DNA from: Synechococcus sp. SP2 MAG
GTDB lineage: Bacteria; Cyanobacteriota; Cyanobacteriia; PCC-6307; Cyanobiaceae
Assembly (NCBI GenBank): GCA_030756895.1
Contig: JAVBIX010000046.1
Span: forward strand, 1 to 50,913
Direction of reading: 5' to 3'
DNA: 50,913 nt
Below the pieces are notes generated by a model. It saw nothing but the letters and a program-made list of their open reading frames with translations, did no database searches and had not been told where the DNA came from. Every line of letters starts with the position of its first letter. Positions within the stretch are counted from its first letter, which is position 1. Made by a program: the position numbers and the translations under genes. Of the stretch, positions 6,269 to 8,883 are shown one piece after another.

Positions 6269-6937
6269 TTATGGGCGCTTGCTATTACGGATCCCCTGAA
6301 TTGCCGCTGCGTAATCCGGTTGGTTGAACACTCCAGAGCCACTCACGATGGCGTTCGCACCAGCTTCAATCACTTTCCATGCATTAGCGCCCTTAACGCC
6401 TCCATCCACTTCGATCCATGGATCAAGACCTTTTTCATCGCACATGCGGCGAAGGTCACTGATTTTTTTAACTTGATTATCGATAAAACTCTGACCACCA
6501 AAACCTGGATTCACACTCATGATCAAAACAAGATCGCAGAGTTCTAAGCAGTACTCAAGCGTGTCAAGTGGAGTGCTGGGGTTAAGCACAGCCCCGGCCA
6601 TTTTGCCGAGATCCTTAATCTGAGCAAGATTGCGATGCAGATGAGGGCAAGCCTCAACTTGCACAGAGATAATATCTGCCCCGGCTTTAGCAAAATCTTC
6701 TACATAATTCTCAGGCTGCACAATCATGAGATGCACGTCCAAAGGTTTTTTAGTAACCGGACGCAACGCCTCCACAATCAGCGGACCAATCGTGATGTTT
6801 GGAACAAATCGGCCATCCATAACGTCGACATGAATCCAATCAGCACCTGCCTCGTCAACAGCTTTGACGTCTTCACCCAATCGGGAGAAGTCAGCAGACA
6901 GGATCGATGGAGAGATCACCAGGGGTTTGGTGCTCAT
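6269..6937 (-). CDS. rpe: Ribulose-phosphate 3-epimerase (canonical copy)
   Basis: Interconverts ribulose 5-phosphate and xylulose 5-phosphate in the Calvin cycle and oxidative pentose phosphate pathway. The 222 residues form a complete TIM barrel. All expected active-site residues are visible: Ser11 in PSILSADF, metal ligands His36 and Asp38 in IHVDVMDG, His69 in DVHLMI, and Asp178 in IEVDGG, plus the phosphate loop [10 protein letters not shown] and the C-terminal VSGSGVF. The start is ATG 6937. The gene sits 50 bases downstream of a second, divergent epimerase homologue on the same strand, and a strong terminator follows it. This is clearly the housekeeping enzyme. Confidence 0.96.
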
Positions 6938-6987
6938 GGAGTAGAGATGAATTAATACACCTCTACGTTACATCTGTTACACGAAGC

Positions 6988-7722
6988 TCAGACTGGTGTC
7001 GAAAGAACCTTTCCAGCCTGAGCTTCGCTAGCAACACGGCGGAGATCATCGCAACCTTCTTTAAGGCTTGGATAAGCAAACATGCCGCTTCCGGCGATGA
7101 AGCAGTTTGCACCAGCTGCGCAGCACTGGGAGATGGTCCAGTTGGCCTTGATGCCACCATCAACTTCGATATCCACGTCAAGATTCCTCTCAACTATGTT
7201 TTTTCTTAAGTCGGTGATTTTGTTCAGCATGGTTGGGATATAGGCCTGTCCACCGAAGCCGGGATTGACTGTCATCACCAACACGTGATCCACCAAGTCC
7301 AAAACGTCCTTCACCATCTCCATCGGAGTATGAGGATTGAGGGCTACAGAAGGGCTTCCACCAAGTTGACGGATCTTTCCAAGAATCCGGTGCAGATGGG
7401 TGTTTGCTTCAACGTGAGCGATGACGACTCCTGGTTCCCCATTGGAGCCCTTAGTGGCCTCTACGTACTCTTCGAGCATTGTTTCGCAGTTGTATTGGCT
7501 CACCATGAGCTGCGTTTCAAACGGGACGTTGCAGTAACGCCGGCAGGCTTTGATCAGCTCAGGGCCGAAGGTGAGATTGGGAACAAAATTCCCGTCCATC
7601 ACGTCGAACTGAATACGATCTACTCCCGCATTTTCGAGATCTTTTACGCATTGCCCCATTGCTGCCCAGTCAGCAGGCAAAACAGAGGGAATGATCTGAA
7701 TAGGGCGATGCGGCGCAGCCAT
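6988..7722 (-). CDS. Divergent Rpe paralogue with altered metal ligands
   Basis: A 244-residue TIM-barrel protein of the ribulose-phosphate 3-epimerase superfamily, clearly homologous to the gene after it but distant. Ser13 (IPSVLPADW), Asp40 and Met42 (FDVMDG), Asp188 (IEVDGG) and the phosphate loop [10 protein letters not shown] are kept. However, the two histidines that bind the catalytic metal in Rpe are glutamines: Gln38 in RIQFDVMDG and Gln71 in ETQLMV. The codons were checked on the complementary strand (CAG in both). It also has an insertion of several residues around KGSNGEPGV and a longer C-terminus. It precedes rpe and probably shares its transcript. It may be a sugar-phosphate epimerase with another substrate or metal, or a non-catalytic partner; the sequence alone does not decide. 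Confidence 0.85.
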   Translation of the reverse strand: MAAPHRPIQIIPSVLPADWAAMGQCVKDLENAGVDRIQFDVMDGNFVPNLTFGPELIKACRRYCNVPFETQLMVSQYNCETMLEEYVEATKGSNGEPGVVIAHVEANTHLHRILGKIRQLGGSPSVALNPHTPMEMVKDVLDLVDHVLVMTVNPGFGGQAYIPTMLNKITDLRKNIVERNLDVDIEVDGGIKANWTISQCCAAGANCFIAGSGMFAYPSLKEGCDDLRRVASEAQAGKVLSTPV

Positions 7723-7878
7723 TAAAAGTTGTCATTAACTTTCAAAATTTTATAGATGCTTCGGTGCTCAAGAGGTGTCCAGATAACACTGATACAGTGA
7801 GCCGCGCATCTGAGACAGAAATCCCTGCTGTTGCAGGCTTTCTACTCAAAGCCCCTCTTTAACCCCCGCAGCACTTAC
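7723..7878. promoter_or_regulatory. Divergent promoter region, rpe-like / glpX
   Basis: The 156 bases between the two divergent starts must hold promoters for both the rpe unit and the glpX unit. A short palindrome CACTG-ATA-CAGTG lies at 7787-7799 near a possible -10 element. No confident -35/-10 pair could be assigned. Confidence 0.35.
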
Positions 7879-8883
7879 GTGGATCGCACTCTCATCCAGG
7901 AAATTCTCGAGATCGTCGAGCAGGCCGCCATCGCTTCCGCCACGCTCTCCGGCAAAGGTCTGAAGGATGAAGCCGATGCTTTGGCTGTTGATGCCATGCG
8001 CAAGCGCATGAATCAGATCCAAATGCAGGGCCGCATTGTGATCGGTGAGGGGGAACGCGACGAAGCTCCCATGCTTTACATCGGTGAAGAAGTTGGAACT
8101 GGCACTGGTCCTGGCGTGGATTTCGCTGTTGACCCTTGCGAGGGCACCAATCTTTGTGCGTACAGCCAGCGCGGCTCAATGGCGGTTTTGGCTGCATCCG
8201 ACCGCGGTGGTCTGTTCAACGCTCCCGACTTCTACATGAAGAAGTTGGCTGCACCACCTGCAGCAAAAGGCAAGGTTGATATTCGCAAATCTGCGACTGA
8301 AAACATCAAAATCCTTAGTGAGTGCCTGGGTCTTGCCCCTGATGAGCTCACCATCGTTGTGATGGATCGTGCCCGTCACAAAGATCTGATCACTGAAATC
8401 CGGGCCACCGGTGCACGGATTCAACCAATTTCAGATGGTGATGTTCAGGCCGCTATCGCTTGTGGTTTTGCTGGAACTGGCACTCACTGCTTGATGGGCA
8501 TTGGTGCTGCTCCTGAAGGTGTGATTTCCGCTGCAGCCATGCGCGCACTTGGCGGACACTTCCAAGGACAACTGGTGTATGACCCAGCCATTGCTCAGAC
8601 ATCTGAGTGGGCAGATATGACGAAGGAAGGCAATCTCGCCCGCCTCGCAGAAATGGGCATTACCGACCCCGATAAGGTGTACGAAGCCAGTGAGCTTGCC
8701 TGCGGAGAGCACGTTGTTTTCGCCGGCAGCGGCATCACAGATGGTCTTCTTTTCAATGGAGTGAAGTTCGAAACTGATTGCACCCGCACGAGCAGCTTGA
8801 TCATCAGCAACCTGAACAACACCTGCAGTTTCACAAACACCATCCATATGAAGGATGGAGCTCAAAGCATCGCTTTGAACTGA
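7879..8883 (+). CDS. glpX: Class II fructose-1,6-/sedoheptulose-1,7-bisphosphatase
   Basis: The GlpX-type dual phosphatase of cyanobacteria removes the 1-phosphate from fructose 1,6- and sedoheptulose 1,7-bisphosphate, an essential Calvin-cycle step. The substrate and metal motifs are present: [33 protein letters not shown] and FAGSGITDG. The GTG at 7879 is chosen as start because it gives the family's usual [15 protein letters not shown] beginning and 334 residues; a TTG at 7831 would add 16 residues that look non-native. The gene opens the plus-strand carbon and tetrapyrrole run, and hemA begins only 26 bases after it. Confidence 0.95.

Follow-up and report, generated by a model that had tools for sequence, protein, structure and literature searches.

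Many marine picocyanobacteria probably carry a working ribulose-phosphate 3-epimerase (Rpe) of foreign origin that, judged by its residues, would no longer hold the usual Fe, Mn or Zn ion and would be either metal-free or dependent on another metal. One such protein is encoded in the window, i.e. the whole stretch of 50,913 nucleotides from the Synechococcus sp. SP2 genome that was analysed. In what follows, QQ denotes Rpe copies with Gln at both positions of the His metal ligands, and HH denotes copies with His at both.

Residues, fold and selective constraint of the QQ protein

The QQ gene (positions 6988 to 7722, reverse strand), identified from its open reading frame, profile matches and an AF2 model, encodes a ribulose-phosphate 3-epimerase-type protein of 244 residues. 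Counted from the start of the reading frame at 7722 and placed by the alignments, the two altered positions are Q38 in the motif RIQFDVMDG (codon at 7609 to 7611, reverse strand) and Q71 in ETQLMV (7510 to 7512, reverse strand), both of which are His in canonical Rpe. Immediately downstream lies a complete canonical HH-type gene (6269 to 6937, reverse strand; reading frame and PF00834 match), whose 222-residue product keeps both histidines, H36 in IHVDVMDG and H69 in DVHLMI, just as the preliminary description of this DNA had read it. According to PMC9978339, Rpe is generally considered a metalloenzyme: in the ordinary enzyme the metal is coordinated by two His and two Asp, the Asp also serving as the acid/base pair, and the metal together with three Met stabilises the enediolate. 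QQ retains both Asp, namely Asp40 (codon at 7603 to 7605, reverse strand) and Asp188 (7159 to 7161, reverse strand), which were recognised by comparison of copies and given their role as acid/base residues and metal ligands by homology (PMC9978339), as well as Ser13, the three Met and the phosphate loop.

Eight active-site positions read S/Q/D/M/Q/M/N/D in 112/112 QQ copies and S/H/D/M/H/M/N/D in 40/40 HH copies, two sets that are partly redundant and in which the window's locus is counted three times. Ser13, Asp40, Met42, Met73, Asn153 and Asp188 are invariant in all 112 QQ copies, while Met150 and the NPGFGGQ motif are invariant in a 10-row alignment. The initial observation of an Rpe-like reading frame with Gln in place of both metal-ligand His, and with the Ser, the Asp and the phosphate loop retained, therefore holds throughout the QQ copies. 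Because all 112 agree, sequencing error and chance are ruled out as the source of the Gln pair, and both Gln look constrained.

QQ is under strong purifying selection, with dN/dS of 0.031 and 0.033 against its two nearest copies and of 0.019 to 0.042 over the estimable pairs (several pairs gave no ratio, dS being saturated). Where estimable, these ratios rule out a decaying duplicate. The HH gene of the window is also still constrained, with a dN of 0.0000 and a dS of 0.531 against the copy in genome G034.

QQ scores 209.9 bits against PF00834 (cut-off 21.1) and 223 bits against the TIGR01163 rpe equivalog, above the cut-off of 212.6; the corresponding scores of the window's HH protein are 289.3 and 305.7 bits. 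Against AlsE (D-allulose-6-phosphate 3-epimerase, NF007266) QQ reaches 143.8 bits, below the cut-off of 271, and membership of this or another sugar family was rejected on that score. The AF2 model (mean pLDDT 85.2, falling below 50 only at residues 154 to 156 in the phosphate loop) has 1tqj, the Synechocystis Rpe, as its top structural match (Z 29.3, rmsd 1.7 over 213 residues); the top 15 matches are all Rpe (Z 27.5 to 29.3), and the model has the (beta/alpha)8 barrel of this family. Since Gln replaces both His in every QQ copy, QQ is by its residues not a His2Asp2 Rpe, and we do not file it as a metal-dependent enzyme of that type.

Six Cys (C25, C60, C64, C200, C207 and C224) do not vary across 23 QQ rows, whereas almost all of 44 HH rows lack them, and the second helix carries a CxxxC among them. 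Redox control through these QQ-specific Cys is possible.

Gene content, the slot beside glpX and the origin of QQ

Of 300 genomes in the family, at least 67 have a QQ-type copy, a lower bound counted from the match list, in which fragmentary matches of low score from a few incomplete genomes were left unclassed. At some level 275 of the 300 match the QQ protein, and the matches next below the QQ class have at most 46% identity to it. Every group g18 genome with a match in this search, 23 in all, carries QQ. A PF00834 search places no canonical HH in 63 of the 67 QQ genomes and has QQ as the sole PF00834 protein in 61; among QQ genomes that are at least 90% complete, 48 of 53 have QQ alone. HH stands beside QQ in four of the 67, namely G000 (the window's own genome), G222, G295 and G273, and L004 and L011, which lie outside the 300-genome sample, also carry both. 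MIT 9201 and MIT 9401 each have a single PF00834 match, at the QQ locus (eight of the 80 best-match loci were so checked). For SS120, a gene table published in 2008 contains a single rpe, Pro0839, which precedes gnd, Pro0843, by four tags (PMC2565063), a spacing that fits the slot order rpe-glpX-hemA-glgC-gnd (glpX, hemA, glgC and gnd being named by eye).

The remaining two of the 67 QQ genomes have, besides QQ, another Rpe-like protein or domain. G104 encodes a distant one (L183:2231-2911, forward strand; 149.7 bits) with His ligands, lying between genes that by eye are dehydrogenase-like and sugar-isomerase-like; it may act on another sugar phosphate. G179, whose other PF00834 gene is QQ, encodes a protein of more than 1,000 residues (L184:2828-5917, reverse strand) with a C-terminal PF00834-like barrel (94.8 bits) and His ligands (HVDVGDG, HTHLMV), and its gene adjoins one that is nucleotidyltransferase-like by eye.

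Rpe is required in the Calvin cycle as well as in the pentose phosphate pathway, and we know of no unrelated enzyme that supplies its activity. Since 61 of the 67 genomes have QQ as their only PF00834 protein, QQ should be an active Rpe there and, on gene content, is almost certainly the working Rpe of its carriers, barring an unrelated enzyme. That QQ instead epimerises or isomerises some other sugar phosphate, or serves as a regulatory pseudoenzyme in complex with HH Rpe, is very improbable. Such a role would suit the four genomes, the window's included, that keep HH, with both genes constrained where estimable, and would equally suit L004 and L011; but it leaves the other 63 genomes with no HH copy, and 61 of them with no other PF00834 protein at all, in a family whose members are oxygenic phototrophs and require Rpe. 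Moreover, QQ and HH alternate in one slot (see below), and the acid/base, Met and phosphate-loop residues are retained in QQ. The regulatory subunit put forward in the preliminary description is accordingly disfavoured, and its suggestion of a changed metal or substrate divides: the substrate half is undercut by the same gene content, whereas the metal half remains the leading reading.

The slot is marked by a glpX-type bisphosphatase gene (7831 to 8883, forward strand; named by eye), a divergent neighbour that adjoins it in 98/98 loci compared. QQ occupies the slot in 84 of these loci, HH in eight, and QQ followed by HH in six; the loci comprise 80 from the QQ search and 18 picked by hand, so that the counts are not frequencies. 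The HH protein of the HH-only genome G034 matches that of the window at 100% identity, and G034 has 39 bp where the window has an 842-bp stretch holding QQ and its spacers (6940 to 7781), which fits the preliminary description's remark that the rpe-glpX order normally contains one rpe. A tree of rpoB, a gene unlinked to the rpe locus, was made for 60 genomes (all 24 of group g1, all 22 of g5 and 14 others, hand-chosen from the 300). Its well-supported branches force at least seven changes of the QQ-only state, at least 11 of the HH-only state, and at least seven between having and lacking HH; sister genomes with different Rpe states are G222/G101, G000/G123, G078/G039, G010/G065 and G273/G186. 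With 7 to 11 changes forced by the tree, plain vertical inheritance of a fixed Rpe state is ruled out. Two genes that do the same job would be expected to alternate repeatedly at one site, and the alternation may have come about either by transfer or by differential loss from an ancestral pair. A central Calvin-cycle gene has in this way been exchanged in place many times, and in some genomes both forms are present.

Among 247 relatives of QQ in genome contigs, the best 80 are by their titles all from marine picocyanobacteria. In a 73-row protein tree QQ forms one clade, sister to two Rpe copies from a Mycobacterium intracellulare plasmid that have Gln at the first ligand position and His at the second (Q/H; support 100/99), and the QQ plus Q/H clade sits outside the cyanobacterial HH rows. 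The grouping holds when the two ligand columns are masked and the longest rows removed (SH-aLRT 98), in a tree whose sampling of other phyla is sparse (rows from plasmids and the PDB) and which contains long branches. The plasmid (NZ_CP012886.2, 318180-325332; L143 and L144) carries a Calvin-cycle cluster and both Q/H copies, the first lying among genes for RuBisCO, transketolase and phosphoribulokinase. With a Q/H Rpe as sister to QQ, the His ligands were probably lost stepwise; the simplest path would have the first lost in the shared ancestor of QQ and Q/H and the second on the QQ stem. As placed by this tree, QQ appears to be a homologue of foreign descent (a xenologue), which most carriers have as a substitute for the canonical gene and not as a companion to it, and the word paralogue, applied to it at first, is misleading. 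The placement that the preliminary description named as refuting, within an Rpe clade with Gln at both positions and proven activity, is not the one obtained: QQ forms a clade of its own next to the Q/H pair, and the literature searched contained no assayed QQ enzyme.

A phage-borne origin was rejected. None of the 85 viral-contig stretches that matched two peptide patterns is a relative of QQ, the 45 phage records with a match to QQ are all below 60% identity (43.6% for the best listed), and no PHROG matched QQ.

katG, peroxide and iron

Fe2+ Rpe is reported to be inactivated by H2O2 (PMC8115020, PMC8633580), E. coli is described as protecting its Rpe with Mn2+ (PMC8633580), and some Prochlorococcus and Synechococcus are reported to be without any H2O2-scavenging genes (PMC10128935). 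For these reasons, the genomes were scored for katG. In the first 52 genomes, a katG match above cut-off occurs in 0/13 QQ-only, 1/4 QQ plus HH and 19/35 HH-only genomes, so that katG is absent also from 16 of the 35 HH-only genomes. For the 60 genomes of the rpoB tree the figures are 0/13 QQ-only vs. 22/47 others (1/4 QQ plus HH and 21/43 HH-only). Over all 300 genomes katG is above cut-off in 97, and among the 67 QQ genomes in G273 only. A 60-residue katG remnant with one stop was found in G222 (G222:C1:1652685-1652864), which carries QQ and HH; in G101, the sister of G222, the only Rpe is HH and the katG match exceeds the cut-off.

The association of QQ with the absence of katG was significant on the rpoB tree both against simulated independent evolution (two-sided p 0.012-0.018) and in likelihood-ratio tests of correlated evolution (p 0.0024 and 0.0035). 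An independent-pairs test of QQ or HH loss against katG in the 60 genomes always gave the same direction and was not significant (median p 0.25 and 0.5). The four QQ-only genomes of group g1 measure 2.4-3.3 Mb, and genome shrinkage alone is thus not the cause within that group. Two further genes were examined after katG. sodN, for nickel superoxide dismutase, is present in 17/17 QQ genomes vs. 31/43 HH-only genomes (tree-aware p 0.065 for QQ presence and 0.14 for HH absence). sdhB, scored as present at E < 1e-19 (only 1/60 genomes passed the family cut-off), is found in 2/17 QQ genomes vs. 18/43 others (tree-aware p 0.10 and 0.11). As both lean the same way as katG, though more weakly, iron economy, lifestyle and peroxide are not separable here. 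The absence of katG from QQ-only genomes fits a peroxide-proof or iron-sparing enzyme and is no proof of one; the link could be explained by lineage or lifestyle, and a low-iron lifestyle is an equal candidate to peroxide. Synechococcus single cells named AG-670 to AG-686 carry QQ, and the plates of that series are from the North Pacific at 28-37 N (PMC6122165).

It is also conceivable, though unlikely in our judgement, that QQ is a working Rpe that spread for reasons unrelated to the metal, e.g. linkage, drift, kinetics or redox control through Cys, the change from His to Gln being compensated and neutral. The clade-specific Cys described above would suit such an account, as would a katG association that is modest and has sodN and sdhB leaning with it; what speaks against it is the invariance of both Gln, together with the seven or more changes of the QQ-only state on the rpoB tree.

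Metal, mechanism and relation to known systems

We propose that QQ entered marine picocyanobacteria beside the native rpe and now stands in its place in most carriers. From its sequence, it would most likely epimerise Ru5P/Xu5P by the usual two-Asp acid/base route while no longer holding the Fe2+, Mn2+ or Zn2+ of ordinary Rpe. Either no metal would be involved, and the Gln amides and Met sulfurs, perhaps aided by an altered network of charges (R36, E69), would stabilise the enediolate, or a different, harder metal would be held by the two Asp. The second branch coincides with a reading that we regard as a serious possibility while not expecting it, in which QQ remains dependent on a divalent metal in the usual position, coordinated by the two Asp, the Gln oxygens and water, with the preference perhaps shifted to Mg2+ or Mn2+. 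Both Asp ligands are invariant in 112/112 QQ copies, and the same-barrel, Mg2+-dependent enzymes KGPDC and HPS are structural neighbours of QQ, one such entry, 3jr2, being described as Mg-bound; but Gln is a poor metal ligand, and with two of the four ligands gone the affinity should be greatly lowered. Since Gln can coordinate metals weakly, a metal-free and a metal-switched QQ are not separable by sequence. For Trypanosoma cruzi RPE, no tested metal is reported to have raised activity and chelators are reported to have given no clear answer for RPE1 (PMC5312968), and the metal need of Rpe may be less universal than assumed.

The likely benefit of losing the usual ion, a weakly supported step of the proposal, would be a peroxide-proof, iron-free Rpe in cells without catalase-peroxidase. 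In its boldest form, which we offer only tentatively and consider doubtful, the Rpe of high-light Prochlorococcus, which may thus rank among the most abundant Rpe of the open ocean, would be metal-free and peroxide-immune, an actinobacterial-type Calvin-cycle Rpe that passed from Q/H to QQ and spread as an iron-free replacement in cells that have dispensed with catalase-peroxidase. If this is true, the steps would run from His/His through Gln/His to Gln/Gln, and the Black Queen story would gain a target-hardening side. If open-ocean phototrophs rely on a single Rpe that lacks both His ligands, the reaction would be shown not to require that metal site, and there would be a hint of how cells lacking katG sustain the Calvin cycle; a question of iron economy and oxidative stress is thereby reduced to a simple enzyme assay.

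The fold, the family and the probable reaction are already known. In the literature searched, which covered few subscription papers, we found no description of the Gln/Gln change, of the Q/H sister or of the in-place alternation; what is new in that scope is that phototrophs of the open ocean have as their sole Rpe one that has lost both His ligands, together with its Q/H sister and its repeated alternation in place with HH.

Compared with canonical Rpe (TIGR01163; 1tqj), QQ shares the fold, Ser13, Asp40, Asp188, the three Met, the phosphate loop and the slot beside glpX, and differs in having Gln for both His, an insertion of 16 alignment columns and the six clade-specific invariant Cys. Its identity is about 40-46% to cyanobacterial HH copies and, in structural alignments with the 15 best-matching solved Rpe chains, 28-39%. 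With the ribulose-phosphate-binding barrels KGPDC and HPS it shares the barrel (Z 18-20), but at 13-16% identity and with different reactions; these enzymes are Mg2+-dependent and hold Mg2+ by other ligands. The Rpe copies of the M. intracellulare plasmid cluster are 52% (first copy) and 45% (second copy) identical to QQ and have Gln for the first His in both; P16, R36 and Y161 are common to QQ and both Q/H rows, unlike HH, and E69 is common to one of the two. Unlike QQ, they keep the second His, are missing nearly all of the QQ insertion and reside on an actinobacterial plasmid. E. coli Rpe, unlike QQ, retains its metal ligands. What it has in common with QQ is the enzyme step and, as the Fe2+ enzyme is described as a target of H2O2 (Sobota and Imlay 2011, as related in the reviews PMC8115020 and PMC8633580), a selective reason for losing iron.
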